Of a stretch of 64,000 nt of DNA, positions 45,234-63,870 are shown one piece after another. Positions within the stretch are counted from its first letter, which is position 1. The number at the start of each line of letters is the position of its first letter. A program made the position numbers and the translations under genes. The stretch lies in contig NZ_JAPZVP010000017.1 of NCBI RefSeq assembly GCF_027622875.1, positions 1 through 64,000 of the forward strand, written 5' to 3'. The notes beneath the pieces were generated by a model. The model saw only the letters and a list, made by a program, of their open reading frames with translations, had not been told where the DNA came from and ran no database searches. This DNA comes from Glycomyces luteolus (GTDB lineage: Bacteria > Actinomycetota > Actinomycetes > Mycobacteriales > Micromonosporaceae).

Positions 45234-45251
45234 ACAGAAAGGGAACTCTCA

Positions 45252-45530: not shown

Positions 45531-45542
45531 AGGACCGCACCG

Positions 45543-47171: not shown

Positions 47172-47187
47172 TGCCGGAGCACACAGC

Positions 47188-48627
47188 ATGAAGGCTGAGG
47201 AGATCGAGGACCTGCGCTCCGCGCTTGAGTTCCTCACCGTGAACGGCGAGGCCCCGACGGTGGTCGAGGAGCCGCTGTCACCGGTCCACGAGATCGCCGC
47301 CCACCACGCGGCGGCCGGCGGCGGCGTGCCCTCGCAGCACAACCTCGCCGACGCCCGCCCGACCATCTACTCGAATCCGGTCGGCTTCGACGTCCCGGTC
47401 GTCATGGGCGTCCACGGGAGGCGCGCCGACTGCGCGGCCATGATCGGGATGGCACCCGAGCGGATCGCGCTCGACCTTGCGGCGCATGTCAACGCGGACC
47501 ACCCGCCGGCCAGGGTCCAGGGGCCGCCGCCGTGCCAGGAGGTCGTCCTCGACGGCCCCGACCTGGACGTGCGCCGCGTCATCCCGGCACTGACGCACAC
47601 GCCGCAGGACGCCGGGCCGTACATCACGATGGGCCTGATGTACGCCGTCGACGAGGAGACCGGCGAGCAGGACGTCACCATCCACCGGCTCTGCCTGCAA
47701 GGACCGAACACGCTGAGCGCGTACTTCGTGCCCGGCAGGCACATCGACCGGCTCCGCCGCCGCGCCGTCGAGCGCGGCGGACGCCTGCCGATCACCATCA
47801 GCATCGGGCTCGACCCGGCGATCTACCTGGTCGCGGCCTTCACCTACCCGACGACCCCGTTCGGCTTCAACGAACTCAACGTCGCCGGGTCGATCCGCGG
47901 CCGCGGCGTCCCGGTCTGCGAGGCGGCCACTGTGCCGGGCCTGGCGATCGCGAACGCCGAGATCGTCATCGAGGGCTACCTCTCGGACACGATGATGCGC
48001 GAGCACCCCACGGACGATGAGGGCGGCTCGCTCCCCGAGTTCCTGGGCTACCAGGGATCGGCGCAGTCCGCACTGCCACGAGTGGAGGTCACGGCGGTCA
48101 CGCACCGGCGCAACCCGCTGTACCAGTGCCTGCTCGGCCCCGGCAGCGAGCAGTCGAACATCCTGGCCCTGCCGACCGAGGCGAGCCTCTACCAGTCGCT
48201 CACGGCCGGGGTGACCGGATCGCTGGTCAACTGCCACTGCCCGCACCACGGCGGCGGAAAGCTCTCGGCCGTCCTCCAGTTCGACAAGACCGGCCCGGTC
48301 GACGACGCGACCGCCCGGCAGGCCGGGCTCGCCGCGTTCGCGGCCTTCCACGAGCTCAAGCACGTCTACCTGGTCGACCGGGACGTGGACCTGTTCAGCG
48401 AGCAGGACGTGCTGTGGGCGATGACGACCCGGTTCCAGGCCGACACGTCGCTGATCTCCGTGCCGTTCCTCAACGGGCACCCGCTCGACCCGTCCCAGAA
48501 CCCGCAGTTCAACCCGGCCAACCGGCACGTCGGCACCACCACCAAGGCGGTGTTCGACTGCACCGCGCCGTTCGAGATGCGCCGGCGGTTCCGCCGCGCC
48601 GACTTCCTGGGAGGTGGGGCGTCATGA
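47188..48627 (+). CDS. UbiD-family prenyl-FMN-dependent decarboxylase
   Basis: 479 aa. UbiD fold: N-terminal domain, prFMN-binding region (PYITMGLMYAVDEETGEQDVTIHRL), the acidic catalytic pair in AIANAEIVIEGYL, and the C-terminal domain with MTTRFQADTSLISVPFLNGHPLDPSQ. It would add or remove a carboxyl group on an aromatic or alpha,beta-unsaturated acid. Its cofactor-maker UbiX is in the same operon. Given the 3-amino-4-hydroxybenzoate-type genes downstream, decarboxylation to 2-aminophenol is a reasonable hypothesis. It is not for ubiquinone, which actinomycetes lack. 16 nt after TrpB2; GGAG SD. Confidence 0.88.
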   Translation: MKAEEIEDLRSALEFLTVNGEAPTVVEEPLSPVHEIAAHHAAAGGGVPSQHNLADARPTIYSNPVGFDVPVVMGVHGRRADCAAMIGMAPERIALDLAAHVNADHPPARVQGPPPCQEVVLDGPDLDVRRVIPALTHTPQDAGPYITMGLMYAVDEETGEQDVTIHRLCLQGPNTLSAYFVPGRHIDRLRRRAVERGGRLPITISIGLDPAIYLVAAFTYPTTPFGFNELNVAGSIRGRGVPVCEAATVPGLAIANAEIVIEGYLSDTMMREHPTDDEGGSLPEFLGYQGSAQSALPRVEVTAVTHRRNPLYQCLLGPGSEQSNILALPTEASLYQSLTAGVTGSLVNCHCPHHGGGKLSAVLQFDKTGPVDDATARQAGLAAFAAFHELKHVYLVDRDVDLFSEQDVLWAMTTRFQADTSLISVPFLNGHPLDPSQNPQFNPANRHVGTTTKAVFDCTAPFEMRRRFRRADFLGGGAS

Positions 48628-49628
48628 CCCGTCCACCGGCGGCCGTGGCGACCTTCGGCCAGCTCGCCGACCTCCAGGCCAAGATGGGCCACGGCATCGC
48701 CCGCTTCTGCGAGCACATCGTGGCCGTCATCGACGCCGCGCACGCGGGCAAGCGCGCAGACCAGGTAGTGCCCTACATCGGACGGCCGATTCCCGTGGTC
48801 GCCGGCCTGGACGAGGCCTGCGCTCTCGGCGCGGAAGAAGTCGTCCTGGGCGGCTCGCCCCCCGGCGGCGGGTCGACCGCGGCCGTGTTCCCGTTCGTGC
48901 GGGACGTGCTCGACCGCGGCATGTGGCTCGTCAGCGGCCTGCACGAGCGCCTCGCCGACCGGTTCCCGAGCGCCGAACGGCTCATCGACCTCCGCCATCT
49001 GCCCGTTGAAGACCGGATCGGGTCGGGCAAGGCGGCCGAACTCGAGGCCTCCGTGCTGCTCACGGTCGGATCCGACTGCGCCTCAGGCAAGATGACCACC
49101 GTCCTCGAAATCGAGCGGATGCTCCGCGGCCGCCGCCGCACAGCGGTCGTGGCCACCGGCCAGACCGGCATGTACATCACCGGATCTGGCCGGGCGGTCG
49201 ACGCGGTCAAGGCCGACTTCCTCGCGGGAGTGGTCGAGCACGAGGTCATGAAGGCCGCCGAGGCCGACCTGATCCTCGTCGAAGGCCAGGGCTCGCTGTT
49301 CCACCCCGCGTACTCGGGGGTCGCCCTCGGTCTGATGCACGGCGCCGCACCCGACAAGCTCGTGTTCTGCCACGACCTGAGCCGCACCCGCCTCGCCTAC
49401 TTCGGGCAGGCCATCGGCGACCTGGGCGAGCAGATCGCGCTGACGCAGGCGCTGGCCGCGCGCCTGCGACCGGCCGAGGTCGTCGCCGTGAGCGTCATGT
49501 TCGACGCCGACCTCCGCATCGACGAGGCCCGTCGGCACATGGCCAGGATCGAATCCGATCTCGGCCTGCCCGTGGTCAGCCCGCGGCTGGGACTCGAGCC
49601 GCTCGCCGATCGGCTGGTGGCCCGATGA
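48624..49628 (+). CDS. DUF1611 P-loop protein (DgcN-like)
   Basis: 334 aa. N-terminal Rossmann-like domain (GKRADQVVPYIGRPIPVV) and a P-loop domain with VGSDCASGKMTT, VATGQTGMYITG, VDFLAG-type and VEGQGSLFHPAYSGVAL motifs, exactly the DUF1611 layout. A DUF1611 protein, DgcN, was described as a D-glutamate N-acetyltransferase acting with the enolase-superfamily racemase DgcA; here too the next gene encodes a dipeptide-epimerase-like enolase-superfamily protein, overlapping by 4 nt. In this operon the pair more likely acylates and epimerises a non-proteinogenic amino acid. Start overlaps UbiD stop (ATGA). Confidence 0.85.
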   Translation: MTRPPAAVATFGQLADLQAKMGHGIARFCEHIVAVIDAAHAGKRADQVVPYIGRPIPVVAGLDEACALGAEEVVLGGSPPGGGSTAAVFPFVRDVLDRGMWLVSGLHERLADRFPSAERLIDLRHLPVEDRIGSGKAAELEASVLLTVGSDCASGKMTTVLEIERMLRGRRRTAVVATGQTGMYITGSGRAVDAVKADFLAGVVEHEVMKAAEADLILVEGQGSLFHPAYSGVALGLMHGAAPDKLVFCHDLSRTRLAYFGQAIGDLGEQIALTQALAARLRPAEVVAVSVMFDADLRIDEARRHMARIESDLGLPVVSPRLGLEPLADRLVAR

Positions 49629-50596
49629 AGCTGACCTGCGAGAGCGAAGACCGCGGCCTGCTGTTCCCGCTCGCCGTGTCGCACACCGTGGTCCGGGAGG
49701 TGCGCGTGCACCGCTTCGTCTACACGGGAGCCGGGACGCGCGGCTGGTCCGAGGTCGCCACCGGCCCTTGGGCGCCCGTCTCGGCGAACGCGATGCGCGA
49801 AGCCGCCGACCAGATCGCTGAAGCGGTGGAGGACCGGAACGTCGCCGACGCCGACGACCTCGCGGACTTCCTCGCCCCCTACTACGGGAAACTGCCGACG
49901 GCGGCCACGCTCGGCGTCGAGATGGCGGTCCTGGACGCGCTCGCCACGGCCGCGAACGAGCCGCTGTGGTCATACCTCGGCCTGCCGCGACCGGACGGCG
50001 CCCCGCTGTTCACCACTGTGGACCTGCTCGACACCGACAGGCCTTGGACGCACACGCCGGGCCGCTACAAGGTCAAGCTCGGCGGACCCGACGACGCCGC
50101 GATCATCGCTTCGTGCCGCGGCACCGGCAGCCGGTTCCTCTTCGACGTCAACAGCGGCTGGGACCTCGCCGAGTACGATGCGCTCGCCCCGGCGCTGCGC
50201 GAATGCGATCCGATCGGCGTCGAAGACCCGGTCCGGTCCCTGGAGGCGATCGTTCCCCGCCGCGCGCAGTGGCGGCGCGACCGGATCTTCCTCGACGAGT
50301 CGGTGCGCGACACCGACGCCGTCCGCCGCCACGGCGACGCGGCCGCCGGGATCAACTTCAAACTGCTCAAGTTCGGCGGCCTCCTGCCCGTCCTCGACGG
50401 CATCCGGATCGCGCGGGCCGCCGGAGCCGAGATCGGCATCGGCTGCTTCATCGAACCCGAGCGGTCCATCGCCTACGCGGGAGCCCTCACCGGCCTCGCC
50501 GACCACGTCGACCTCGACGGCGACCGCTGGCTCACCGGGGCCGAGCGGTCCCGCCTCCGGCTCGACGACGGACCCGGCATCGGGAGGACGGCATGA
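49625..50596 (+). CDS. enolase-superfamily epimerase (dipeptide epimerase/DgcA-like)
   Basis: 323 aa, mandelate racemase/muconate-lactonising group. Catalytic Lys in YKVKLGG, metal ligands Asp (FDVNSGW), Glu (GVEDP), Asp (FLDESV), second catalytic Lys in NFKLLKFGG, and GCFIEPERS, as in L-Ala-D/L-Glu epimerases. It should abstract the alpha proton of an N-acylated amino acid. The tight coupling with the DUF1611 gene matches the DgcN-DgcA gene pair known from D-glutamate catabolism. Confidence 0.85.
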   Translation: MKLTCESEDRGLLFPLAVSHTVVREVRVHRFVYTGAGTRGWSEVATGPWAPVSANAMREAADQIAEAVEDRNVADADDLADFLAPYYGKLPTAATLGVEMAVLDALATAANEPLWSYLGLPRPDGAPLFTTVDLLDTDRPWTHTPGRYKVKLGGPDDAAIIASCRGTGSRFLFDVNSGWDLAEYDALAPALRECDPIGVEDPVRSLEAIVPRRAQWRRDRIFLDESVRDTDAVRRHGDAAAGINFKLLKFGGLLPVLDGIRIARAAGAEIGIGCFIEPERSIAYAGALTGLADHVDLDGDRWLTGAERSRLRLDDGPGIGRTA

Positions 50597-51177
50597 GCAC
50601 CGAGCGATATGTCGTGGCGATCACCGGCGCGTCCGGATCGGAGTACGCCCTGCGGCTCATCGAGATCCTCGTCGAGGCCGGCCACGAGGCCTACGTGGTG
50701 ATCTCCGCGGGCGGCCTCGTGACATTGCGGCACGAAGTCGAACCCGAACGCCTGCACCAGGTGCTGGCGCTGGCGACGGAGGTCTTCGACGACGCCGACA
50801 TCGGCGCGTCGATCGCCTCCGGCTCGTTCGTGTTCGACGGCCTCGCCGTGGTGCCGTGCTCCATGAACTCGCTGGCCCGCCTCAACGCCCACATGGCCGA
50901 CACGCTGATCACCCGCGCGGCGATGGTCGCCATGAAAGAGCGGCGGCGCATGGTCGTCGTCCCCCGCGAGATGCCCATGGCCACCGGGACGCTCGAGCAG
51001 ATGGCGCGGCTCTCCGGGCTCGGCGTCATCATCGCCCCCGCGTCACCCGGCTTCTACCACCGACCTCAGTCGATGGAGGAACTCGTCGAATTCGTGGCCG
51101 CCAAGACCGCCGCCTGCCTCGGCGTGCGCTCGTGGCGGCTCAAAGCATGGAAGGCGAATCAACTGTGCGACACCTGA
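50593..51177 (+). CDS. ubiX: UbiX-family flavin prenyltransferase
   Basis: 194 aa. FMN-binding VAITGASGSEYALRLIEIL, dimethylallyl-phosphate region (SIASGSFVFDGLAVVPCSMNSLARL), PREMPMATGTLEQMARLSGLG and ASPGFYHRPQSMEELVEFVAAK. Makes prenylated FMN for the UbiD enzyme of the same operon. Overlaps the epimerase gene by 4 nt. The Ser-for-usual-residue changes in GASGSEYAL are minor. Confidence 0.92.
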   Translation: MSTERYVVAITGASGSEYALRLIEILVEAGHEAYVVISAGGLVTLRHEVEPERLHQVLALATEVFDDADIGASIASGSFVFDGLAVVPCSMNSLARLNAHMADTLITRAAMVAMKERRRMVVVPREMPMATGTLEQMARLSGLGVIIAPASPGFYHRPQSMEELVEFVAAKTAACLGVRSWRLKAWKANQLCDT

Positions 51178-51211
51178 GTTCGAAAACACCTGCCAGGAAA
51201 GGAGTCCCGTC

Positions 51212-52030
51212 GTGAAGGAACTGCGTCTGCGGCGATTGCGGCACCCCGAGACGGGACGCGTCGTCATCTGCCCGATGGACCACGGTGTCACCTTGGGCCC
51301 CATCAAAGGCCTGACCGACCTGGAGCTGGCCGTCGAGCGCGTGAAGCGCCACGTCGACGCCATCGTCGTCCACAAGGGCCAGATCCCGGTCGTGTCCCGC
51401 CAACTGGGCGACCACCCCGAGGTCGCGGTGCTGGTGCACCTCAACGCCTCCGTGCAGGGGGCCTCGAGCCACCCGGCGAAGGTTCTGGTCGCCGAAGTCG
51501 AAGAGGCCGCCGGGCTCGGCGCCGACGGCGTCTCGGTGCAGCTCAACCTCGGCTGCGAAGGCGACGCGGACATGCTGGCCACGGTCGGTCGGGTCACCCG
51601 CGAGGCCCGGCTGCTCGGACTGCCGGTGCTCGCCATGACCTACCCGCAGCCGCCCGGCATGAGCGGCGAGGCCACCGACGACATCGTCCACGTGGCCCGC
51701 GCCGCCGCCGAGCTGGGCGCGGACCTGGTGAAGGTGTCGATGCCCCTCGTTCCCGAAGAGGTCGAGCGCATCGTCGCCGGAGCGGGCGTCCCCGTGGTCG
51801 TCTCGGGCGGGCCGTACAACGACGACCGCCAGGCCGTCCTCGACGGCGTCCGCCTCGCGATGGAGGCCGGAGCCAGCGGTGTCGCCTTGGGCCGCAACGT
51901 GTTCCAGGACGCCGACCCGCAGCGCTCGGCCAAGGAGCTGTACGCGGCGGTACACGGCCAGTCCCGCGTGCGGTCCTTCGAAGACCTGGACGCCTACCCG
52001 ATCCCCGACCTCCCCCGCAACCCGTTCTGA
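51212..52030 (+). CDS. class I DhnA/ADH-synthase-type aldolase (GriI-like)
   Basis: 272 aa. CPMDHGVTLGP, VVHKGQIP, VLAMTYPQPPGM (catalytic Tyr) and GADLVKVSMP (Schiff-base Lys), VVVSGGP, ALGRNVFQ. Family members are 2-amino-3,7-dideoxy-heptulosonate synthase of archaea and GriI of Streptomyces griseus, which joins aspartate semialdehyde with a triose phosphate on the way to 3-amino-4-hydroxybenzoate. Its immediate neighbour is the matching second enzyme, making the GriI-like role the best reading. GTG start with AGGAAAGGAG SD. Confidence 0.85.
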   Translation: MKELRLRRLRHPETGRVVICPMDHGVTLGPIKGLTDLELAVERVKRHVDAIVVHKGQIPVVSRQLGDHPEVAVLVHLNASVQGASSHPAKVLVAEVEEAAGLGADGVSVQLNLGCEGDADMLATVGRVTREARLLGLPVLAMTYPQPPGMSGEATDDIVHVARAAAELGADLVKVSMPLVPEEVERIVAGAGVPVVVSGGPYNDDRQAVLDGVRLAMEAGASGVALGRNVFQDADPQRSAKELYAAVHGQSRVRSFEDLDAYPIPDLPRNPF

Positions 52031-52049
52031 GCCGACCGAGAGGACCACC

Positions 52050-53225
52050 ATGACCGCCCCGACCACTGAGAACCCCGTCGCCCGCGACACCCGCCCCGGC
52101 AAGCGCGGCGACCAGCAGGCCTGGCTCTGGGTCGACGCCTCGACCCCGGTCGCCGTCGTCGACCGCGCCTGCCAGTCCGGATACGAACGCTTCATGGCCA
52201 CTGTGGACGGCCTCGATGTGCTGGCCTCCTACCAGTTGCCGCAACGGGCTTTGATCAGCCCCGTCATCGAGCAGGCGGAGGACGCCGCCGCCATCCTGGA
52301 GCACCCGGTGATCGAAGGCAGGCTCGACTGCCTGGTCGGCACCTCCCCCGAGGCGCTGCCGTCCAGCGGCTACGACGGCCCCGTCGGGCTGCTCGAACAC
52401 GTCGACGACCACGACTCGCTGATGCGGGTCGTCGAGCACCTCGGCCGCGTCGACCTCGTCGCGATCGTCTTCAAGGACCCCACCAACATCCCGCTCGAAC
52501 TGGTGCTCGCCGAGGCCCAGCACACCAGCACCCGGGTCGCGAAAATCGTCCAGAGCGGCACCGACGGCGAGGTCAGCTTCATGACGATGGAGTCCGGGGC
52601 CGACATCATCGTGCTGCGCTCCACCGACATCGTCGAGGTCACCAGGCTGGCCGACATCGCGAGCGAGAGCACCCGCCAGCAGCTCGCGCTCCGCCCCGCC
52701 ACGGTCACCGCCGTCACCCACGTGCCGATGGGGACCCGGGTCTGCGTCGACACCACCTCCGCACTGGGCGTCGACGAGGGCATGCTCATCGGCTCGACCT
52801 CCACCGGCGGGCTCATGACCTGCAGCGAGACCCACTTCCTGCCGTACATGAACCTGCGGCCCTTCAGGGTCAACGCGGGGGCGCTGCACCTGTACGTCTG
52901 GGGCCCGAACGACCGGGCCGTCTATCTCAGCGACCTGCGCGCCGGCTCCGAGGTCCTGGCGGTCAACGCCGAAGGCCGCGCCCGGCCGGTCACGGTGGGG
53001 CGGGTCAAGATCGAACGGCGGCCGCTGCTGCTGATCGAAGCCGAGATCGACGGGCGCGAGGTCAACACCTTCATCCAGGACGACTGGCACGTCCGAATGA
53101 TGGGCGCCGACGGCGAGATCCGGCCCTCCGCCGAGATCAAGCTCGGCGACCGGCTGCTCGGCTACCTCGACCGCCCCGGACGGCACGTCGGGATCCGCAT
53201 CGACGAGACCATCGACGAGCGATGA
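52050..53225 (+). CDS. 3-dehydroquinate synthase II-type enzyme (GriH-like)
   Basis: 391 aa of the archaeal DHQ synthase II family: WLWVDASTPVAVVDRACQSGYERFM, GLLEHVDDHDSLMRV, the MESGADIIVLRS and DTTSALGVDEGMLIGSTSTGGLMTCSETH segments, FRVNAGALHLYV. With the aldolase 19 nt upstream it reproduces the GriI/GriH pair that forms 3-amino-4-hydroxybenzoate outside the shikimate pathway (grixazone, asukamycin, platensimycin-type clusters). An N-terminal extension of about 22 polar residues precedes the domain; whether it targets the shell is unknown. Confidence 0.87.
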   Translation: MTAPTTENPVARDTRPGKRGDQQAWLWVDASTPVAVVDRACQSGYERFMATVDGLDVLASYQLPQRALISPVIEQAEDAAAILEHPVIEGRLDCLVGTSPEALPSSGYDGPVGLLEHVDDHDSLMRVVEHLGRVDLVAIVFKDPTNIPLELVLAEAQHTSTRVAKIVQSGTDGEVSFMTMESGADIIVLRSTDIVEVTRLADIASESTRQQLALRPATVTAVTHVPMGTRVCVDTTSALGVDEGMLIGSTSTGGLMTCSETHFLPYMNLRPFRVNAGALHLYVWGPNDRAVYLSDLRAGSEVLAVNAEGRARPVTVGRVKIERRPLLLIEAEIDGREVNTFIQDDWHVRMMGADGEIRPSAEIKLGDRLLGYLDRPGRHVGIRIDETIDER

Positions 53226-53710
53226 GCCCCAGTGAACCGGTCTTCGAGCCGGCCACTGAGGACGACGTCGACGACCTGCTGAAACTGCAGTACCTCTGCT
53301 ACCAGGGCGAAGCCGAGCGCTACGACGAGTGGCGGCTGCCCGCGCTCGTTGAGCCCCGCGACACGCTGCTCTCGGTGCTCAAGCGCGAAACGGTGATCGC
53401 CTGCCGGCTCGACGGCGAGCTCATCGCGAGCGTCCGCGCCGAGACCGACAGCCTGAGATTCCACATCGGACGGCTGATCGTGCACCCGCGCTTCCGGCGG
53501 GCCGGCATCGGGCGGCGCCTCCTGCGCGGCATCGAGGCCGCCGCCCCGCCGGGAGCCGAGCTCGAGTTCTACACCGGCCACCGCAGCGTGGAGTACCTGG
53601 CGCTGCTGGAGAGCGAGGGGTACCGCGAGACGCGCCGCGAACCGGTCTCGACCCGGCTCACCCTCGTGTACCTCACCAAACAGACAGAACGAAAGGACGG
53701 ATCCCCATGA
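53222..53710 (+). CDS. GNAT-family N-acetyltransferase
   Basis: 162 aa. Acetyl-CoA site IVHPRFRRAGIGRRLLRGIEAA and the conserved ESEGY near the C-terminus. Overlaps both neighbours by 4 nt. In an aminohydroxybenzoate pathway it might acetylate an aromatic or amino-acid amine, as protective acetylation is known in grixazone-type metabolism; this is inference. Confidence 0.82.
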   Translation: MSPSEPVFEPATEDDVDDLLKLQYLCYQGEAERYDEWRLPALVEPRDTLLSVLKRETVIACRLDGELIASVRAETDSLRFHIGRLIVHPRFRRAGIGRRLLRGIEAAAPPGAELEFYTGHRSVEYLALLESEGYRETRREPVSTRLTLVYLTKQTERKDGSP

Positions 53711-54693
53711 GACTCCTGGTGCTGTCGGGCGACGAAGTCCACAAGCATCTGACCGCGCGCGACTGCCGCGACCTGATGCGCGAGGCGCTCCTGGCCCTGG
53801 CGGGCGGCGAGGTGTTCCTGCCGCTGCGCACCGTCGTCCGGCCCCCGGGCCTGGCCGGGCTGCTCGCCCTCATGTCGACGCATGTGGACGGTGAACGGCC
53901 GAGCTTCGGCATGAAGTCGGTGTGCGTCTTCCACGGCAACCCCGAGCGCGGCAAGGACGCCCACCAGGGCGTCGTGACCCTGTTCGACCACGAGACCGGC
54001 GAACCGCTCGCGATCATGAACGCCGCCGCGATCACCGAGGTCCGCACCGCGGCCGTCTCGGCGCTCGCCACCGAGGCCCTCGCCCGGCGGGACGCGAACG
54101 TGCTCACCATCTTCGGCACCGGGACCCAGGCCAAGGCCCACTTGCGGGCGCTCGCCGACGTGCGGCCGTTCACCGAAGTGCGCGTCGTCAGCCGCGACCC
54201 CGCCAACGCCAGGGCCTTCGCCGAGACCGAGACCTCGGGCGTCGCTGTGCCGATCACCGCCTTCAGCGATCCCGAGGAGGCGGTGGCGGGCGCCGACGTG
54301 ATCGTCACCGCCACCACCTCGCACGACCCGGTCCTGTTCCGCGACTGGGTCGCCCCCGGTGCGCACGTCAACGCGGTCGGATCCTCCATTCCGGTTGCGG
54401 CCGAACTCGACCCGCACCTCATCGCGGCCGCGTCGCTCTGGTGCGACCGCAAGGAGTCGCTGGTGAACGAGTCCGGCGACTACCTGCGCGCGGTCGAGGC
54501 GGGCGTGGTGACCGAACCGGACGTGCGCGGCGAACTCGGCGAGATCCTCGCCGGGACCATCGCGGCGCGCACGTCCGATGCGGAGATCACGGTGTTCAAA
54601 TCCCTCGGCCTCGCCGTCGAGGACGTGGTGGCCGCCCGGCACCTCTACGAGGTCGCCGTGCGCGCCGGCCTCGGCCAATGGGTCGAGTTCTGA
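53707..54693 (+). CDS. ornithine cyclodeaminase/mu-crystallin-family enzyme
   Basis: 328 aa. HTFP-type N-terminal dimer domain (PLRTVVRP, FGMKSVCVFHGNPERGKDAHQGVVTLFD), AAAITEVRTAAVSALATEALARRD, NAD(P) motif LTIFGTGTQAKAHL and GADVIVTATTSHDPVLF, SLGLAVEDVVAARHLYE. Family reactions include ornithine cyclodeamination, alanine dehydrogenase and imine or ketimine reduction. In context it could reduce an imine or deaminate a pathway amino acid. Start overlaps the GNAT stop. Confidence 0.87.
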   Translation: MRLLVLSGDEVHKHLTARDCRDLMREALLALAGGEVFLPLRTVVRPPGLAGLLALMSTHVDGERPSFGMKSVCVFHGNPERGKDAHQGVVTLFDHETGEPLAIMNAAAITEVRTAAVSALATEALARRDANVLTIFGTGTQAKAHLRALADVRPFTEVRVVSRDPANARAFAETETSGVAVPITAFSDPEEAVAGADVIVTATTSHDPVLFRDWVAPGAHVNAVGSSIPVAAELDPHLIAAASLWCDRKESLVNESGDYLRAVEAGVVTEPDVRGELGEILAGTIAARTSDAEITVFKSLGLAVEDVVAARHLYEVAVRAGLGQWVEF

Positions 54694-54707
54694 GGAGCGA
54701 CGCGAAC

Positions 54708-55382
54708 ATGATGCAACTCCTCGTATACGGCGGCGTGTTCATCCTCGGCGCCGCCTCGCCCGGACCGGACTTCCTCATCGTCACCAAGCACGCGATGACC
54801 GGCCGCCGCCCCGGCCTCGCCGCGGCGGCCGGCATCGCGGGCGGCGTCGGCGTGCACGCGGCGGTCGCGCTGGCCGGACTCGGCGCGGTCCTCCTCGCCT
54901 CGCCCGGCCTGTACGCCGCGGTGCGCCTCATCGCCGCCGGGTACCTGGTCTACCTCGGCGCGACGGCACTGTGGGCGATCAGGCCCCGCCGCCCCGGCGA
55001 CACGGCGGAAGCGAGCGAACCTTCGGAGGACGAAGCGCCGCTCACCGGAGCGGGCCAGGCGACGACGGTGCGGACGAAGTCCTGGACCGCGTTCCGCCAA
55101 GGGCTGCTGACGAACGTCCTCAACGCGAAGGTCGTCGCGTTCCTCATCACCCTCATGCCCGGGTTCCTGCCCACCCGGCCCGACCTGCTCGACATGACCG
55201 CGATCTGGGTCGTGTCGGTGGCCGTCACGTTGGTGTGGTTCGGCTTGCTCGCGCTCGCCGTCGCGCACTTCTCGGCGTTCCTGCAGCGGCCTCGGGTCAA
55301 TTTCGCGCTCACCCTCATCGTCGGCTGCGCGCTGCTGGCCATCGGCGGCTACATGGCCGTCTCAACCCTGGCGGGACTATGA
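54708..55382 (+). CDS. LysE-family amino-acid exporter
   Basis: 224 aa with six TM helices; LysE/RhtB signature GAASPGPDFLIVTKHAMTGRRPGLAAAAGIAGG, then GYLVYLGATALW and FRQGLLTNVLNAKVVAFLITLMPGF. The central loop is long (about 35 acidic residues). It exports amino acids or derivatives, so the operon probably ends in a secreted amino-acid-like product. GAGGAG lies 11 nt upstream of ATG 54708. Confidence 0.92.
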   Translation: MMQLLVYGGVFILGAASPGPDFLIVTKHAMTGRRPGLAAAAGIAGGVGVHAAVALAGLGAVLLASPGLYAAVRLIAAGYLVYLGATALWAIRPRRPGDTAEASEPSEDEAPLTGAGQATTVRTKSWTAFRQGLLTNVLNAKVVAFLITLMPGFLPTRPDLLDMTAIWVVSVAVTLVWFGLLALAVAHFSAFLQRPRVNFALTLIVGCALLAIGGYMAVSTLAGL

Positions 55383-56452
55383 CCGAATACCACGATCCCC
55401 AACTGGCGCAGCAGATCCGGGCGCTGGACCCGCTCCGCGCCGACGAGCTGCTCGCCGACCTCCCCAAGCTGAACCGGGCCGGCGACCGCGCCGCCCTCGC
55501 GATGACCCTGACGCTCCTCGTCGACAACGGCCTCGCGCAACCGGCGCGCTCCCTTCCCGAGGCGAACGCGGCGATGCGGGACCTCGGCATGGTGCTCAGC
55601 TCGGTACGGCGCCACGGCGACGAACCGGTCGAGGCGGTGCCCCGCCTGGAGGCGCTGCTGCTCGACCTCGCCGACCGCACGGGCCTCGTCCCGCGCGACA
55701 TGATCCTGCACTACACGGTGTGGAACCCGACCGGAGACCGCGAGCGGACCTTCACCGGCGATCCGATGGAGCGGGCGCTGATCGAATCGGTGCGCCTGGT
55801 CGGCGACGACCTCGAGGCCGCCATCCGCCGCTGCGACCGGATCCTGGCCGCGCCGTCCCTCGAAGCGGTGCCGCCGCTCCTGCTCGACGAGCTGGCCGCC
55901 GACCTCCAGTGCATGGTGGACTCGATGGACATGGTCATCGACGAGGTGCGGCCGGAGTTCTTCTTCACCGACATCCGCCCCTACCTCGATCCCGTTCTCG
56001 TGGAAGGGAAGTCCTACTACGGCGCTGCCGCCGCGCAGATGCCGATCTGGCTGATCGACCAGGCCCTGTGGGCCGCCGACGACGGCCACGCCGAGTACCG
56101 GGATTTCGCCGCGTCCATGCTCCCGTACGCCCTCCCCCACTGGGTCGGCCACTACCGGGACTGGACCGCGAAGCCGTCCATCAGCGGCCGCATCCGCACC
56201 GCCCTCGCCCCGTACGGCACCGACGACCCGCCGCCGCACCTCGAGCGCATCGCCAAGGCGCACACCGGGGTCCTCCGGACGCTGCTCACGTTCCGGGGCC
56301 GCCACATGGGCATCACCAAGCGCGCCTATGCGGGAGCGCCGAACATGAGCGGCAGCGGCGGCGGCAGCGTCGCCCTCCTCCAGGAGATCATCGAGCTGAC
56401 CCGGGCCCACGCCCGCCTGACCGCCCCGACCAGGGCGAGCGCACCTTCCTGA
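55379..56452 (+). CDS. PrnB-like haem enzyme (indoleamine-dioxygenase superfamily)
   Basis: 357 aa, collinear over its length with PrnB (monodechloroaminopyrrolnitrin synthase) of pyrrolnitrin biosynthesis: LPKLNRAGD, AAMRDLGMVLSSVRRHGDEP, MILHYTVWNPTG, RTFTGDPMERALIESVRL, FFTDIRPYLDP, SYYGAAAAQMP, and FRGRHMGITKRAY with the expected proximal His near 309, then the SGSGGGS loop. PrnB converts (7-chloro)tryptophan into an aminophenylpyrrole. There is no halogenase here, so an unhalogenated tryptophan-like amino acid, possibly the product of the TrpB2 enzyme, is the suspected substrate. Last gene of the operon (4-nt overlap with LysE gene). Confidence 0.85.
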   Translation: MTEYHDPQLAQQIRALDPLRADELLADLPKLNRAGDRAALAMTLTLLVDNGLAQPARSLPEANAAMRDLGMVLSSVRRHGDEPVEAVPRLEALLLDLADRTGLVPRDMILHYTVWNPTGDRERTFTGDPMERALIESVRLVGDDLEAAIRRCDRILAAPSLEAVPPLLLDELAADLQCMVDSMDMVIDEVRPEFFFTDIRPYLDPVLVEGKSYYGAAAAQMPIWLIDQALWAADDGHAEYRDFAASMLPYALPHWVGHYRDWTAKPSISGRIRTALAPYGTDDPPPHLERIAKAHTGVLRTLLTFRGRHMGITKRAYAGAPNMSGSGGGSVALLQEIIELTRAHARLTAPTRASAPS

Positions 56453-58398: not shown

Positions 58399-60051
58399 TC
58401 AGGTCGTGATGCGGAAGGTCGCGTCGGCGCGTCCGGTGGCCGTGCTGACCGACTCGAGCTTCAGCAGGTAGTCGTAGTGCCTGATGTAGCGGTCGGGGTG
58501 GCTGTGCGACCGGAACGAGCGCCACGAGCCGTCGGCGAGGCCCGCCACCGAGTGGAAGGTCGCGTCGGCGGCGAACGTCGAGGAGCCGTTGTTCGGGTCC
58601 AGCCGGAAGTCGTAGTTGTAGTGGCGCAGGTAGTAACCGGGCTTGTTCGCCGCCTCGAACGAGACCCCGGCCGCATCGGCCAGGCCGGGCACCAGCCGGA
58701 ACTGCGCGTCCGCCGCAGGGCTGATCGTGTTGTCCAAGCGGACGTCGTATTGGATGTGGCGCACGTACCGGTCCTGGTAGTTGTAGGACTGGAGCCGGTT
58801 GAGCGTGGTCGGCTTCCGTTCCTGCACGTAGGCGAGCGTGCCGAGACCGAGCGAGTCGAAGCCGCCGGAGGCGGTGCCGTAGTCGCCTCCTCCGCCCTCG
58901 GGCCGGACCTTGGAGAGCATCTCCAACACGTTCGGCATCGCGCGGCCGAGCCGCCCGTAGTAGTGGGAGTACACCAGCTCCCACACCGGTCGGATCTGGC
59001 CGCGCCCGCCCTCGGAGATCACGGTCTGCTCGTTGTAGGTGCAGTTGTGGCCGTTGTACCAGACGAACTTGGTGAAGGGCACGCTGTGCCCGTTGTTGTA
59101 GCGGGCCACGTACTCGGCGGCCTTGGCGAAGGCGCTGTCGCGGGCGGAGTAGAGGTCGATGCCCTGGCTCCAGGCCATCTCCATGAACTCGGCCATCAAT
59201 CCGATGCCCATCATCGTGTGGGCCTGGTCGCGGCCCGACTCCTGCCACTGGGCGAGGTCGCCGTGGATGAAGGGGATCACGTGCTCGATCGAGCCCTGGC
59301 CCTTGCCGTTCCAGAAGTACTCGATCGCCTGGTCGACCTTGGCCTTGTCGTCGTTGAAGATGCCGATCGAGAGGATCGATGCCATGTTGCACAGGTCCCA
59401 GTTGGCCCAGTAGTGGCCGTCGCAGGTGCCGTGGCGGCGGACGAGGAAGTCGTTGTTCAGCGTGTAGAACACGTTGGCGAGCATCGTCCGGAAGCGGGCC
59501 CGGTCGAAGCCGGGTGCGTCGCGGACCAGCTCGGCGGCGTTGGCCGCCTGGTAGCCGTAGATCCCGGCGGCGAGGGAGGTCTCGGTCCAGCCGCCGATCT
59601 CCTTGAGGGTCCCCGACCAGGCGTTGAGGATTCGCACGGCGCAGTCGCGGTGAGCGGTGTCGCCGCTGATCCTCCAGCGCAGCCCGTTCTGGTAGGCCGC
59701 GTGCATGTCGTTCATGAGCAGCCAGTAGTTCTCGGGGTCGGTGCCGTTGTTGCCGCGGATGATTCGCTCGACCGGCCGCGGGTTCCAGGTGGAGAAGGAG
59801 TGCGAGTTGTTGATCAGCCGGTTCCAACCCGAGATCCACGGCTCCCGGTTGCCCTGGACGGCGCTCCGCATCCGGTCGATGTCGTCGTTCTGGATCAGCA
59901 TCCCCGGGTGGGAATAGGCCTGGGCCTGGGCGATCCCGAGGGCGCCGGCTCCGGCGGCGGCGATGCCTCCGGCGACGATCGCTCCTCTGAGGAGGTTCCG
60001 CCGCCCGATGCTCGGGCTGCGGCGGGTTCCGCTCTGCTGTTGTTCGGACAT
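58399..60051 (-). CDS. Tat-exported alginate-lyase-family protein with AbfB (CBM42) domain
   Basis: 550 aa. Tat signal (RRNLLRGAIVAGG, AQA cleavage near 45); (alpha/alpha) toroid lyase domain (about 50-400) with YWLLMNDMHAAYQNGLRW, GHYWANWDLCNMASILSIGIF, CTYNEQTVISEGGRGQIRP; C-terminal AbfB beta-trefoil (about 410-548) with three YVRHIQYDVRLD / YYLRHYNYDFRLD / YIRHYDYLLKLE repeats that bind arabinofuranose side chains in other enzymes. Probably attacks an arabinose-decorated plant polysaccharide outside the cell. The exact uronic-acid substrate is unknown. Confidence 0.8.
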   Translation of the reverse strand: MSEQQQSGTRRSPSIGRRNLLRGAIVAGGIAAAGAGALGIAQAQAYSHPGMLIQNDDIDRMRSAVQGNREPWISGWNRLINNSHSFSTWNPRPVERIIRGNNGTDPENYWLLMNDMHAAYQNGLRWRISGDTAHRDCAVRILNAWSGTLKEIGGWTETSLAAGIYGYQAANAAELVRDAPGFDRARFRTMLANVFYTLNNDFLVRRHGTCDGHYWANWDLCNMASILSIGIFNDDKAKVDQAIEYFWNGKGQGSIEHVIPFIHGDLAQWQESGRDQAHTMMGIGLMAEFMEMAWSQGIDLYSARDSAFAKAAEYVARYNNGHSVPFTKFVWYNGHNCTYNEQTVISEGGRGQIRPVWELVYSHYYGRLGRAMPNVLEMLSKVRPEGGGGDYGTASGGFDSLGLGTLAYVQERKPTTLNRLQSYNYQDRYVRHIQYDVRLDNTISPAADAQFRLVPGLADAAGVSFEAANKPGYYLRHYNYDFRLDPNNGSSTFAADATFHSVAGLADGSWRSFRSHSHPDRYIRHYDYLLKLESVSTATGRADATFRITT

Positions 60052-60418
60052 GGTGCTCCCTTGCGCCATGCGGTGAGCGACGCCGGGGAAACGCCACCGC
60101 GGTCAACGACGGTCGACGCGGGGGCGCGTCTCCTGTCGTAGAGAACGGTATCTCATAATGCTTACATATTTCAATATCTGACTCGAGATTCATCGGACTG
60201 CTGCGCGAAAGCGCTACAGCTACCGGGCACTCTTGCGGCACAGCAACCGAATACACCAGATGAACCCGCGATCAGCATTACAGATAACGGTTTCTGTCTT
60301 GCTCGGCACGCACCTCACCACGATCGTCGCCATCCCCGAACCCGATCGGACAGGAACCTGAGCGACACCCCCGAGAACTCCCTCGGTATCGCGGGCACGC
60401 GGCGCACAATCACTGCGC
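60052..60418. other. 367-nt divergent intergenic region
   Basis: Lies between the lyase-like gene and the carbonic anhydrase gene. It contains the minus-strand promoter candidate at 60145-60174 and an imperfect LacI-type core at 60209-60216. Beyond these I see only unremarkable AT-richer sequence; no gene. Confidence 0.5.
60145..60174 (-). promoter_or_regulatory. candidate promoter of the CBM42 lyase-like gene
   Basis: On the minus strand TTGAAA (60169-60174), 18-nt spacer, TACCGT (60145-60150), about 90 nt before the start at 60051. Confidence 0.4.
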
Positions 60419-61105
60419 ATGAAGCACCAGAAGTACCCGACGCGACGCGGACTGCTCCGCGGCGCGGGGGCAGTCGGCATCGGGACGCTCCTCACCGGCG
60501 CCTCCTCGCGTCATGACGAGTCCGGCGCCGCGGCCGGCAGCGCCTGGACTTTTCTCATGGAGGGCAACCGGCGCTGGTCGGGCGACCGCCCGCTCCACCC
60601 GCACGACGACGCCGCGCTGCGCCACTCCCTGGTCTGGAGCCAGCATCCGCGCGCGATCGTCTTCACCTGCATCGACTCCCGCGTACCGCCCGAGTACCTG
60701 TTCGATGCCGGCAACGGCGACCTCATGGACGTCCGCACCGCGGCCCACACCCTCGACCCGATGGTCGCCGAATCAGTCGCGTACGGACCCGTCGAGCTGC
60801 GCACCCCGCTGGTCGTGGTGCTCGGCCACCAGCACTGCGGCGCGGTCACCTTGGCCTGGAACACCCTTGACTGCGGCGGCGACGCCGCGGGCTTCGACCG
60901 GCTCGTCGAACATCTCGCCCCCGCGTACGAGGCCAGCCTGGACGCCGTCGGCGACCCGGTGGACGCGATGATCCGCGCCCACACCCGCCTCACCGTCGGC
61001 AATCTCCGCGCCCTGCCGGCACTGGCGGCTCTCGCCGAGGCCCGCGAGCTGGCGATCGTCGGCGCCTACTACTCCCTCGAGACCGGCGTCGTCGAGCGAA
61101 TCTGA
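60419..61105 (+). CDS. Tat-exported beta-carbonic anhydrase
   Basis: 228 aa. N-terminal Tat signal (TRRGLLRGAGAVGIGTLL), then a beta-CA domain: FLMEGNRRWSGDRP, zinc ligands Cys in FTCIDSRVPPE and His/Cys in GHQHCGAV, with the Asp-Arg dyad in CIDSR. Beta-CAs are normally cytoplasmic; Tat export suits a folded zinc enzyme and would put CO2/bicarbonate interconversion at the cell surface. No obvious SD at ATG 60419. Confidence 0.88.
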   Translation: MKHQKYPTRRGLLRGAGAVGIGTLLTGASSRHDESGAAAGSAWTFLMEGNRRWSGDRPLHPHDDAALRHSLVWSQHPRAIVFTCIDSRVPPEYLFDAGNGDLMDVRTAAHTLDPMVAESVAYGPVELRTPLVVVLGHQHCGAVTLAWNTLDCGGDAAGFDRLVEHLAPAYEASLDAVGDPVDAMIRAHTRLTVGNLRALPALAALAEARELAIVGAYYSLETGVVERI

Positions 61106-61202
61106 ACGCCGCCAACACGAATCGCCTGATCGATCACCGAGCGCCCCAGCCTCCGGCCGGAACGCAGTCCCTCCTCAACCGGGGCGGTGCAGCGCTGAGC
61201 CG

Positions 61203-61231
61203 TTGACTGGATATCGACAAGTATCTATAGT
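61203..61231 (+). promoter_or_regulatory. strong sigma70-type promoter
   Basis: TTGACT (61203-61208), 17-nt spacer, TATAGT (61226-61231), the closest match to consensus in the window. It points to the mini-ORF at 61314; GTATC is repeated around the -10 (61221-61225, 61237-61241). Confidence 0.7.
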
Positions 61232-61313
61232 CTCAGGTATCTTGTTTTCGACGCCTCCCTCGAATGTTTCGAATCCTTCGCTTCGCCGTCATCGCCTCCC
61301 ATGAGGAGTGAGC

Positions 61314-61406
61314 ATGGCGCTCTCCACCGATCGCAGGAACTTCCTGACCCTGACCGCGGCCACCGCCGTCGCGGCCGGGACCGGCTACCGGCTGGTCCCT
61401 CAGTAG
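61314..61406 (+). pseudogene. orphan Tat-signal mini-ORF (probable gene remnant)
   Basis: 30 codons encode a Tat-type leader (DRRNFLTLTAATAVAAG) followed only by TGYRLVPQ and a TAG stop. It has a perfect SD (GAGGAG, 61303-61308), a strong promoter and a following hairpin terminator, so the 5' and 3' control signals of a secreted-protein gene survive while the mature coding part is missing. Either an internal deletion has removed the enzyme or it is a short leader peptide gene. Confidence 0.6.
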
Positions 61407-61460
61407 AGCGCCCGCGTCCCGAACGCCCGCAGCGCGACCGGCGACTCCTGTCCACACGCC

Positions 61461-61503
61461 GCCGCCGCGAGAAGCCCCATGCCGGAGGGCTTCTCGCGGC
61501 GGC
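61461..61503 (+). terminator. 17-bp perfect hairpin
   Basis: Arms at 61461-61477 and 61487-61503 (GCCGCCGCGAGAAGCCC and its complement) with a 9-nt loop, between the mini-ORF and the DUF1680 gene; weakly AT-rich tail. Confidence 0.75.
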
Positions 61504-61557
61504 TTAAATCGATTATCGTCTATGTGATCGTGCTCATTACGATTCAAGGAGTTTCGA

Positions 61558-63870
61558 ATGCACTCGTCCCCGATGAGCCGCCGCAGGCTCTTCCAGACCG
61601 CCGGCGTCACCGCGATCGCCGCTGCCGCAACCGGACTCGTCGCGAACCCGGTCCACGCGACGATCGCCCCAGCCCGTGAGGACATCGGCGCGCTCGCCGA
61701 GCCCTTCCCCCTCGGTCAAGTCCGGCTCAACGCGGGCCGCTGGCTCGACAACCAGAACCGCACCCTCTCGTTCCTGCGGTTCGTCGACGTCAACCGGCTC
61801 CTCTACAACTTCCGCGCCAACCACCGCCTCTCGACCGGCGGCGCCGCGGCCCTCGGCGGCTGGGAGGCCCCGAACTTCCCGTTCCGCACCCACTCGCAGG
61901 GCCACTTCCTGACCGCCTGGGCCCAAGCCTGGGTCGCCCTGGGCGACACGACCTGCCGCGACAAGGCGAACACCATGGTCGCCGAACTCGCCAAATGCCA
62001 GGCCAACAACGGCGCCGCCGGGTTCGCCGCCGGATACCTCTGCGGCTTCCCCGAATCCGACTTCACCGCCCTGGAGAACGGCACGCTCACCAACGGGAAC
62101 GTCCCGTACTACGTCATCCACAAGACCCTCGCCGGGCTCCTGGACGTCTGGCGCTACATGGAGAGCACCCAGGCCCGCGACGTGCTCCTCGCCCTCGCCG
62201 GCTGGGTCGACACCCGCACCGCCCGCCTCTCCTCCTCCCAGATGCAGACCGTGCTCGGCCGCGAGTTCGGCGGGATGAACGCTGTCCTCACCGACCTCTA
62301 CCAGCAGACCGGCGATGCGCGCTGGCTCACCGCCGCCAAGCGGTTCGACCACGCCGCCGTCTTCGACCCGCTCGCCGCGGGCCAGGACCGGCTCAACGGC
62401 TTGCACGCGAACACCCAGGTGCCCAAGGCGATCGGCGCCGCCCGCGAGTACAAGGCCACCGGCACCACCCGCTACCGGGACATCGCCGACAACTTCTGGA
62501 CCATCGTCACCGACGCGCACACCTACGCCATCGGCGGGAACAGCGAGGCCGAGCACTTCCGACCGCCGAACGCCGTCGCCGGATACCTCGACACCGACAC
62601 GTGCGAGGGCTGCAACACCTACAACATGCTCAAGCTGACCCGCGAGCTATGGCTCCTCGACCCCGACGACGCGTCCTATTTCGACTACTACGAGCGGGCG
62701 ATGCTGGGCCACATGATCGGCTGGCAGAACCCGGCCGACGCCCACGGGCACATCACCTACTTCACCCCGCTCAAACCGGGCGGCCGCCGGGGCGTGGGCC
62801 CGGCCTGGGGCGGCGGCACCTGGTCCACCGACTACGACTCGTTCTGGTGCTGCCAGGGCACCGGCATCGAGACGTTCACGAAGCTCATGGACTCCGTCTA
62901 CTTCCACGACGACGCCGGACTCTATGTCAACCTCTACACGCCCTCGACCCTCACCTGGTCCCAGCGCGGCGTCACCGTCACCCAGGCCACGACCTACCCG
63001 GTCGGCGACAGCTCGACCCTCACCGTGACCGGCACGAGTGGACAGTGGACGATGCGGCTGCGCATCCCCGCCTGGACCCAGAACGCCACGGTCAGCGTCA
63101 ACGGCACCGTCCAGAACATCGACACCAGCCCCGGGCAGTACGCCGAGCTCAACCGCAGCTGGGCCTCGGGCGACACAGTCACGGTCAAGCTCCCGATGCG
63201 CGTCGTCATCGAAGCGGCCAACGACAACCCGAACGTCGCCGCCGCAATCTACGGGCCGGTCGTGCTCTCGGGGAACTACGGCAGCACCGCCCTCAGCGCC
63301 CTGCCCGCGCTCACCGTGGGCTCGATCCAGCGGACCAGCACCTCGTCGCTGGCCTTCACCGCGACCGCCAACGGCGCCAACGTGAACCTGGGTCCGTTCT
63401 ACGACGCCCACGGACACAACTACACCGTCTACTGGAACACCGGTGGCGGGACTGCGGGCCAGGTCGTCAAGCTCCAGAACGTGGGCACCGGGATGGTCCT
63501 CGGCGTCCAGAACATGTCCAAAGCCGACGGCGGACTGGCCGTCCAGTGGCACGACACGAGCACCGCCGACCACTACTGGGAGATCGTGGCCTCCGGCTCG
63601 ATCGTGAAGCTGCGCAACCGCAACAGCGGCAAGGTCCTCGGCGTCGAGAACATGTCCACGGCCGACAACGCCCGGGTCCTCCAGTGGGGCGACAACGGCA
63701 CCGCCGACCACAACTGGACGCTCGTCAACCTCGGCGACGGGACCTACAAGATCAGGAACGCCAACAGCGGCAAGCTGCTCGGCATCCTCAACGGCTCGAC
63801 CTCGGCTGGCGCCCAGGCCGTGCAGACCCCGGACGACGGCACCGCCGACAACCGGTGGAGGCTCGTGTGA
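61558..63870 (+). CDS. Tat-secreted DUF1680/GH127-like glycosidase with ricin-type lectin domain
   Basis: 770 aa. Tat signal (SRRRLFQTAGVTAIAAAATG, VHA cleavage near 39). DUF1680 domain (about 45-600): GWEAPNFPFRTHSQGHFLTAWAQ, REFGGMNAVLTDLY, LHANTQVPK, the Glu/Cys motif DTCEGCNTYNML and WCCQGTGIETF, i.e. the same zinc-cysteine site as GH127. C-terminal beta-trefoil (about 638-770) with three VLGVQNMS / VLGVENMS / LLGILNGS repeats and QW motifs (CBM13-like). Extracellular counterpart of the cytoplasmic GH127 at 6168-8579. AAGGAG SD; a LacI-type core AATCGATT lies 44 nt upstream. Confidence 0.85.
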   Translation: MHSSPMSRRRLFQTAGVTAIAAAATGLVANPVHATIAPAREDIGALAEPFPLGQVRLNAGRWLDNQNRTLSFLRFVDVNRLLYNFRANHRLSTGGAAALGGWEAPNFPFRTHSQGHFLTAWAQAWVALGDTTCRDKANTMVAELAKCQANNGAAGFAAGYLCGFPESDFTALENGTLTNGNVPYYVIHKTLAGLLDVWRYMESTQARDVLLALAGWVDTRTARLSSSQMQTVLGREFGGMNAVLTDLYQQTGDARWLTAAKRFDHAAVFDPLAAGQDRLNGLHANTQVPKAIGAAREYKATGTTRYRDIADNFWTIVTDAHTYAIGGNSEAEHFRPPNAVAGYLDTDTCEGCNTYNMLKLTRELWLLDPDDASYFDYYERAMLGHMIGWQNPADAHGHITYFTPLKPGGRRGVGPAWGGGTWSTDYDSFWCCQGTGIETFTKLMDSVYFHDDAGLYVNLYTPSTLTWSQRGVTVTQATTYPVGDSSTLTVTGTSGQWTMRLRIPAWTQNATVSVNGTVQNIDTSPGQYAELNRSWASGDTVTVKLPMRVVIEAANDNPNVAAAIYGPVVLSGNYGSTALSALPALTVGSIQRTSTSSLAFTATANGANVNLGPFYDAHGHNYTVYWNTGGGTAGQVVKLQNVGTGMVLGVQNMSKADGGLAVQWHDTSTADHYWEIVASGSIVKLRNRNSGKVLGVENMSTADNARVLQWGDNGTADHNWTLVNLGDGTYKIRNANSGKLLGILNGSTSAGAQAVQTPDDGTADNRWRLV

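Follow-up and report, generated by a model that had tools for sequence, protein, structure and literature searches.

A PrnB-family gene in a shell-encoding, probably biosynthetic operon of Glycomyces luteolus

Gene organization of the locus

We analyzed a stretch of 64,000 nucleotides from Glycomyces luteolus (assembly GCF_027622875.1, contig NZ_JAPZVP010000017.1, positions 1 to 64,000; hereafter the window), which carries a gene for a homologue of the pyrrolnitrin heme enzyme PrnB. The gene closes an operon of 14 co-directional genes (44698-56452, + strand), separated by intergenic gaps of -4 to +34 bp and with all 14 open reading frames (ORFs) open. The initial annotation had described it as the last gene of an operon that also holds a TrpB2; the position and the shared operon are correct, but that account understated the length of the operon and overlooked the shell genes at its head. 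The PrnB observation was right and the lack of a halogenase turned out to be ordinary; the real discovery lies in the surroundings, an operon that encodes bacterial microcompartment (BMC) shell proteins and is probably biosynthetic. Its genes, in order and with the profile scores on which their assignments rest, are the following:

44698-44949, + strand: BMC-P, microcompartment vertex protein (EutN/CcmL) of 83 amino acids; PF03319, 48.9 bits (cut-off 25)
44946-45233, + strand: 95-amino-acid protein, possibly a divergent or degenerate BMC-H-like shell protein; unproven structural resemblance (AlphaFold2/Foldseek)
45252-45530, + strand: BMC-H, hexameric shell protein of 92 amino acids with a PRPH motif; PF00936, 92.8 bits (cut-off 24.5)
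45543-47171, + strand: TrpB2, TrpB-like pyridoxal phosphate enzyme of 542 amino acids with a C-terminal extension; TIGR01415, 533 bits (cut-off 518.85)
46833-47168, + strand: C-terminal extension of TrpB2, from about residue 431 on, common to Paractinoplanes pyxinae; candidate shell-targeting part
47188-48627, + strand: UbiD family decarboxylase, AroY-like; PF01977, 171.6 bits
48624-49628, + strand: DUF1611/DgcN-like protein; PF07755, 187 bits
49625-50596, + strand: DgcA-like racemase/epimerase of the enolase superfamily; PF13378, 45.8 bits
50593-51177, + strand: UbiX-type flavoprotein, likely prenyl-FMN supply for UbiD; PF02441, 125 bits
51212-52030, + strand: DhnA/DeoC-type aldolase, similar to ADH-synthase and BagB-FevI; PF01791, 149.4 bits
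52050-53225, + strand: dehydroquinate synthase II-type enzyme (DHQS-II), similar to 3-amino-4-hydroxybenzoate (3,4-AHBA) synthase; PF01959, 318.8 bits
53222-53710, + strand: GNAT acetyltransferase; PF00583, 35.4 bits
53707-54693, + strand: ornithine cyclodeaminase/mu-crystallin family protein, ketimine reductase-like (OCD); PF02423, 258.1 bits
54708-55382, + strand: LysE-type amino acid exporter; PF01810, 90.5 bits (for a start at 54690)
55379-56452, + strand: PrnB-family heme enzyme; PF08933, 136.9 bits (curated cut-off 27), PDB 2v7i at 1.4e-59, fold match

The PrnB-family protein

The PrnB gene is an intact ORF of 357 codons whose start, stop and frame were verified. The collinear match to PrnB claimed at the outset, including the heme-ligand His region, was borne out by the PF08933 profile, by the alignments with Pseudomonas fluorescens PrnB (PfPrnB, 2v7i; E 1.4e-59, 37% identity) and FbPrnB (9dfg; 7.2e-45, 32% identity), and by the predicted fold. 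An AlphaFold2 model based on a 38-sequence alignment gave a predicted local distance difference test (pLDDT) score of 92.5 and a predicted template modelling (TM) score of 0.89, and with this model Foldseek returned PrnB crystal structures at ranks 1 to 12 (TM 0.85-0.90), followed by SO4414 and indoleamine 2,3-dioxygenase. The gene is confirmed as a genuine PrnB relative within the heme-dependent aromatic oxygenases.

The conserved His toward the C-terminal end, H309, aligns with H313 of PfPrnB. H313 is the proximal heme ligand, so the earlier description of this residue as distal is wrong as chemistry. Y317 and S326 align with Y321 and S332 of PfPrnB, and the carboxylate loop G325-S326-G327-G328 aligns with its GSGG. 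In FbPrnB, the accessible text of PMC11791213 assigns the binding of the substrate carboxylate to Gly210, Gly211 and Ser319; the glycine pair is Ala-Ala in the window protein (GAGGG vs GAAAA), and also in most relatives. An alpha-amino acid therefore probably continues to serve as substrate. Pocket size among PrnB proteins varies at Val117/Tyr104 according to the same text (PMC11791213), and the window protein, like most of its relatives, has Tyr at this position (Y112). When conservation was counted over 89 relatives (the divergent L037 left out), 57 columns were at least 97% conserved, and the window protein keeps 51 of them, including H309, Y317 and S326.

Halogenases and related PrnB loci

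A check for flavin halogenases beyond the window had been proposed. In the genome (5.74 Mb, 49 contigs) nothing matched Trp_halogenase (PF04820) at E 1e-3, so that no PrnA/PrnC type was found. This search is a loose net, with matches in 5 of 14 control genomes. No PrnD-type Rieske N-oxygenase was recognized among the operon genes, the genome at large not having been searched for PrnD, and the window gene is the single PF08933 match in its genome. A pyrrolnitrin (prnABCD) label for the cluster was rejected.

The initial annotation presented the halogenase-free PrnB as noteworthy, a view that did not survive comparison with 95 related PrnB loci, 15 from the same family and 80 named ones (the best 80 of 117 found). 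Neighbours were counted over about 10 kb by tblastn, from single query proteins with a threshold of E 1e-12; some contigs end early, and the 95 loci include five whose PrnB is identical to one from another locus. The named relatives were recovered by an alignment-based contig scan, a single-protein scan having yielded no relative. A Trp halogenase lay within about 10 kb in only three loci, all in the genus of the window, and none was seen nearby in the other 92, which corrects the picture of PrnB. Because so few loci carry one, the halogenase-free context is not remarkable, and the idea that this lack is special to the window locus was rejected. More frequent neighbours were relatives of a FAD_binding_3/LCM protein (query from L035; 81 loci), NmrA (62), HpaB (60), MFS transporters (56) and ketosynthase (22).

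Two kinds of PrnB cluster stood out in this set. The loci L048-L127, from Streptomyces and others, represent a widespread, mostly actinobacterial halogenase-free cluster whose PrnB is 38-45% identical to that of the window; a FAD_binding_3/LCM relative follows PrnB, often with HpaB, MFS and NmrA and sometimes with a ketosynthase. The three halogenase-bearing loci (L023, L024 and L025, in genomes G522, G502 and G545) hold PrnB homologues 42% identical to the window protein. A FAD_binding_3/LCM relative and a Trp_halogenase-type gene directly adjoin PrnB in these loci, and the vicinity also contains a ketosynthase relative. They form a prnAB-like cluster of which we found no description.

PF08933 matched in 21 of 300 family genomes and 2 of 396 phylum genomes, and 4 of 22 genomes of the genus matched the window PrnB. 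Five loci with high PF08933 scores (L038-L042) were not used for comparing PrnB, as four had no tblastn match to the window protein and L042 was only 27.6% identical; they look like members of an SO4414-type subfamily. L037, a divergent PrnB (28%), was kept in the tree.

Shell genes and their recurrence in other genomes

By their profile matches, the first two or three genes of the operon are predicted to encode a microcompartment shell, with one recognized BMC-P, one recognized BMC-H and one possible degenerate BMC-H. The BMC-P and BMC-H genes are the sole matches to PF03319 and PF00936 in the genome, and no second shell locus was found there with these profiles. BMC-P overlaps the next gene through ATGA. 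A single-sequence AlphaFold2 model of the 95-amino-acid protein (pLDDT 79) has the order E-H-E-E-H-E, as in the ferredoxin-like BMC-type domain. Of the 50 Foldseek matches listed, 28 were BMC shell chains, but the first four were other ferredoxin-like or engineered proteins and no match of any kind fell below E 1e-3.

A BMC domain was found in 29 of 354 Micromonosporaceae genomes, that of the window being the only one of its genus among them. One BMC locus (10.8-20 kb) was examined in each of the 28 others; second loci in G646, G698 and G731 lay outside the comparison. The set of shell, TrpB2, DgcN, DgcA, GNAT, OCD, LysE and PrnB genes recurs in two of the 28, Paractinoplanes pyxinae (G617) and G744, which belong to two other genera of the family, as one intact and one decayed copy. 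The shell genes and this gene set are therefore associated beyond the window. The remaining 26 loci gave BMC-type matches alone at E 1e-5, save one GntR-like match in L205, and among the 80 named PrnB loci only that of P. pyxinae had a BMC-H match (E 1e-2 or better).

In P. pyxinae the locus lies on NZ_JAPNTZ010000016.1, of which two stretches were examined (L057, L200, L201). It holds genes for a protein similar to tryptophan 2,3-dioxygenase (TDO), BMC-P (71.5 bits), BMC-H, TrpB2, DgcN, DgcA and two more BMC domains, and for an alpha/beta hydrolase, OCD, TrpA, TrpB, GNAT, LysE, a luciferase-like enzyme and PrnB. Identities to the window proteins are 64% for BMC-H, 57% for TrpB2 (over 538 amino acids), 54% for DgcN, 38% for DgcA, 53% for GNAT, 56% for OCD, 41% for LysE and 43% for PrnB. 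Unlike the window, P. pyxinae has TrpA, TrpB, TDO-like, PEP-utilising and luciferase-like enzymes and the two extra BMC-domain genes, and no match to UbiD, UbiX, the aldolase or DHQS-II was found in its two stretches. The TDO-type gene (L201:1556-2335) belongs to the same enzyme superfamily as the nearby PrnB. The G744 locus (L206, L210) shows identities of 67% for BMC-H, 58% for DgcN, 34% for DgcA, 46% for GNAT and 45% for LysE. It also has TrpB, TrpA and a TDO-like gene, and inspection of the translation by eye shows an ORF resembling BMC-P; an N-terminal remnant of TrpB2 is fused to the end of DgcN, the OCD match spans 35 residues and PrnB contains a frame change.

Two other arrangements were seen in the family. 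Five loci (L202, L203, L204, L209 and L222) represent another BMC locus type, with a BMC-H 60% identical to that of the window and, about 3.2 kb off, another BMC. In L205 (G447) a BMC-P (37%) adjoins a BMC-H (53%), and no TrpB2 or PrnB match lies nearby.

The shell genes might instead be remnants, or encode a scaffold such as a BMC-H sheet or tube, with a cytosolic PrnB and no compartment. Only one BMC-H and one BMC-P are recognized, and the GC content of the first three genes (44698-45530; 0.58-0.66) is lower than that of the remaining genes (0.68-0.72) and of the operon (0.70). Yet each of the shell genes has an open reading frame that overlaps its successor or lies right against it, the window BMC-H keeps PRPH, a BMC-H facet motif according to the accessible text of PMC8217296, and the shell association recurs in two other genera. 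We judge this explanation improbable.

TrpB2 and its C-terminal extension

TrpB2 scored 585.6 bits with NF009057, and its best solved relative is 6hul (5.4e-106). It retains the catalytic Lys and the Glu-containing ETGAGQWG motif. A second TrpB-like protein encoded elsewhere in the genome (C1:210207-211241) is 32% identical to it. TrpB2 carries an extension of about 110 residues, with a short aromatic and charged stretch at residues 459-472. This extension is shared with P. pyxinae (33% identity over 93 amino acids, E 1e-5) and is missing in the nine ordinary TrpB2 proteins compared, all of which end 436-442 amino acids past the match start. Of 397 order genomes, 74 had matches to TrpB2 with an E-value of 1e-100 or lower, and among the matches listed, which do not include the P. 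pyxinae protein, all but TrpB2 of the window end by residue 506 of 542. A suspected resemblance of the extension end to the EutT N-terminus found no support in searches.

The window and P. pyxinae enzymes also share 51 residues and one gap in which they differ from at least eight of the nine ordinary enzymes. Several of these differences lie beside the catalytic Lys (SHKANSG vs SHKPNTA) and in the GGGS loop, and some of the 51 residues agree with the 6hul enzyme. These features suggest that TrpB2 is a cargo of the shell, held there through its extension, and that it may have changed its substrate. As PrnB shares the operon with this dedicated TrpB2, the proposal of a tryptophan-like amino acid as the PrnB substrate is reasonable.

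Candidate aminophenol genes and the remaining operon genes

Four genes of the window operon may supply the aromatic partner of TrpB2. The best solved relative of UbiD is AroY, a protocatechuate/3,4-dihydroxybenzoate decarboxylase (5o3m, 1.3e-116, residues 5-474 of 479). The UbiX assignment was made because the operon also encodes a UbiD, the two being usual partners. The aldolase scored 245 bits with NF005556 (cut-off 241). Window-type DHQS-II homologues were found in 68 of 300 family genomes, and the aldolase adjoined the DHQS-II homologue in all ten neighbourhoods examined, in which no match to UbiD, TrpB2 or PrnB was found. The aldolase and DHQS-II pair presumably acts as GriI/GriH do in 3,4-AHBA synthesis. 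With AroY as the nearest solved relative of UbiD, the obvious guess is that it converts 3,4-AHBA into 2-aminophenol; the latter is what the four predicted enzymes together suggest as the aromatic building block. Two feeder modules would thus be represented, aldolase/DHQS-II/UbiD/UbiX in the window and TrpA/TrpB in the sister loci. Above 100 uM, 2-aminophenol is toxic to Micromonospora rosaria according to the accessible text of PMC10470539, which would provide a motive for its confinement.

Concerning the other genes, the best solved relative of OCD is 6t3e, a delta1-pyrroline-2-carboxylate reductase (3.3e-58). In the DgcA-like protein the motif positions of the enolase-type fold (KxK, D, E, D, K) are present. 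Downstream of the operon (58399-63870) are an alginate lyase with an AbfB domain, a carbonic anhydrase and a GH127 protein with a ricin-type lectin, all apparently unrelated.

The same aromatic would also suit a catabolic compartment akin to ARO, the aromatic type of the microcompartment catalogue (PMC8217296, in its accessible part), which acts by meta-cleavage of 2-aminophenol or catechol; here 2-aminophenol made by UbiD from an aromatic acid, or an amino acid, would be degraded. ARO is known from this bacterial order, its shell is about as simple (one BMC-P, two BMC-H), and the source of its 2-aminophenol is described as unknown (PMC10470539, accessible text). The TDO-like gene of P. pyxinae would fit degradation as well. 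However, a scan of the operon genes, to which this search was confined, showed no LigB-type ring-opening dioxygenase or aldehyde dehydrogenase, and DHQS-II with its aldolase, TrpA/TrpB and the LysE exporter suggest synthesis and export. We regard a catabolic role as quite improbable, and an ARO label for the window compartment was rejected on gene content.

Classical PrnB chemistry on unhalogenated tryptophan, close to the idea of the initial annotation, is a stronger competitor, although we still find it unlikely. TrpB2 would make Trp from cellular indole and PrnB would convert it into 3-(2-aminophenyl)pyrrole or the preceding pyrroline-carboxylate; OCD might trap the latter as an aryl-proline, and the aminophenol genes would serve another part of the molecule. 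Trp is accepted by PrnB as an alternative substrate (PMC11791213, accessible text), the window PrnB keeps H309, Y317 and S326, TrpA and TrpB are present in the sister loci, OCD is nearest to a delta1-pyrroline-2-carboxylate reductase and TrpB2 keeps the Glu of the indole type. Yet the window operon has no TrpA, no enzyme coupling aminophenol to an arylpyrrole was recognized among its genes, and the four aminohydroxybenzoate/aminophenol genes are left unexplained. In addition, M108, where the relatives have T in 89 of 89 cases, is a change found only in the window protein, four positions away from Y112 of the pocket.

A possible biosynthetic microcompartment

For the operon as a whole we favour, at about even chances, a biosynthetic microcompartment in which TrpB2 as cargo captures an aromatic and PrnB oxidizes the resulting amino acid; the substrates, the encapsulation and the product are what we infer from the gene set. 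The aldolase/DHQS-II pair would make 3-amino-4-hydroxybenzoate, which the AroY-like UbiD with UbiX would decarboxylate to 2-aminophenol. TrpB2, held at the shell by its extension, would couple this small, toxic and membrane-crossing compound with serine or phosphoserine to form an amino-hydroxyphenylalanine; indole from TrpA would feed the same capture step in the sister loci. The PrnB-type enzyme would then bind the amino acid through its conserved carboxylate loop and oxidize or rearrange the ring, after which OCD would reduce a cyclic imine, DgcA, DgcN and GNAT might act on the amino group or the stereochemistry, and LysE would export the product. The fuller version of this idea is somewhat more tentative: a shell that serves synthesis instead of CO2 fixation or catabolism, keeps TrpB2 together with an aromatic nucleophile that is reactive and prone to leak (2-aminophenol or indole), yields a non-protein amino acid and, through rearrangement by PrnB, a specialized metabolite, with a feeder that is exchangeable between genera.

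Several observations weigh against the biosynthetic compartment. Among the shell genes, the 95-amino-acid protein has no relevant Pfam match and scored a non-significant 0.8 bits against a hidden Markov model of 49 BMC-H sequences, and the PRPH facet motif of the window BMC-H is missing in the BMC-H proteins of the sister loci. The G744 locus, with its TrpB2 and OCD remnants and the frame change in PrnB, is decayed or misassembled, so that only the window and P. pyxinae provide an intact example. For the final 50 residues of the TrpB2 extension no Pfam domain or relevant homologue was found, and TrpB2 keeps the ETGAGQWG Glu of indole-using enzymes, whose replacement in engineered TrpB reportedly favours phenols. 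Specific profiles for the other enzymes stayed under their cut-offs: VdcC for UbiD (NCBIfam, 293.8 bits vs 650), BagB/FevI (171.4 vs 500), BagC/FevH (230.7 vs 750), DgcN (NF041892, 194.7 vs 480) and DgcA (72.4 vs 400). PrnB of the window deviates at six of the 57 conserved columns, three of them invariant: S74, M108 and T313 stand where 89 of 89 relatives have G, T and A, and D143, F196 and M323 where 88 of 89 have P, A and L. Finally, in the full-length tree this PrnB groups with that of P. pyxinae (support 80/98), but a tree of the N-terminal half breaks the grouping and places the window protein beside FbPrnB (support 0.146). Since the trees disagree, the argument does not rest on this grouping.

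If the proposal holds, a shell operon built on TrpB2, an aminophenol module and an oxygenase of the PrnB type would bring microcompartments into specialized metabolism; in the accessible text of the catalogue, CO2 fixation is the anabolic example and the others are catabolic (PMC8217296). It would also be a natural case of a protein shell in place of the indole tunnel of TrpA-TrpB. Purified PrnB was inactive in the in vitro tests described in PMC11791213 (accessible text), and the operon places a PrnB-type enzyme among candidate partners.

Comparison with known systems

No matching compartment type was found in a literature search that did not extend to the supplementary locus diagrams of the microcompartment catalogue, and the word tryptophan does not occur in the main text of the catalogue as accessible (PMC8217296). 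With the pyrrolnitrin PrnB proteins (2v7i, 9dfg) the window protein shares family, fold, heme-ligand His, carboxylate loop and collinear alignment. It differs in its setting, a shell operon in a genome where no PrnA/PrnC-type halogenase was found. Like the ARO microcompartment, as described in the accessible texts of PMC10470539 and PMC8217296, the system belongs to the Micromonosporales and has a simple shell and 2-aminophenol as the likely aromatic, but in the window 2-aminophenol would be made and captured instead of degraded.

The adjacent DhnA-type aldolase and DHQS-II-type enzyme resemble BagB/BagC (FevI/FevH) and GriI/GriH. Unlike BagB/BagC, the window pair falls under the NCBIfam cut-offs and stands in an operon with an AroY-like decarboxylase. 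That decarboxylase resembles AroY (5o3m, 5ny5) over nearly its full length and has, like it, a UbiX-type partner, here in the same operon, whereas the substrate proposed for the window UbiD is 3-amino-4-hydroxybenzoate.

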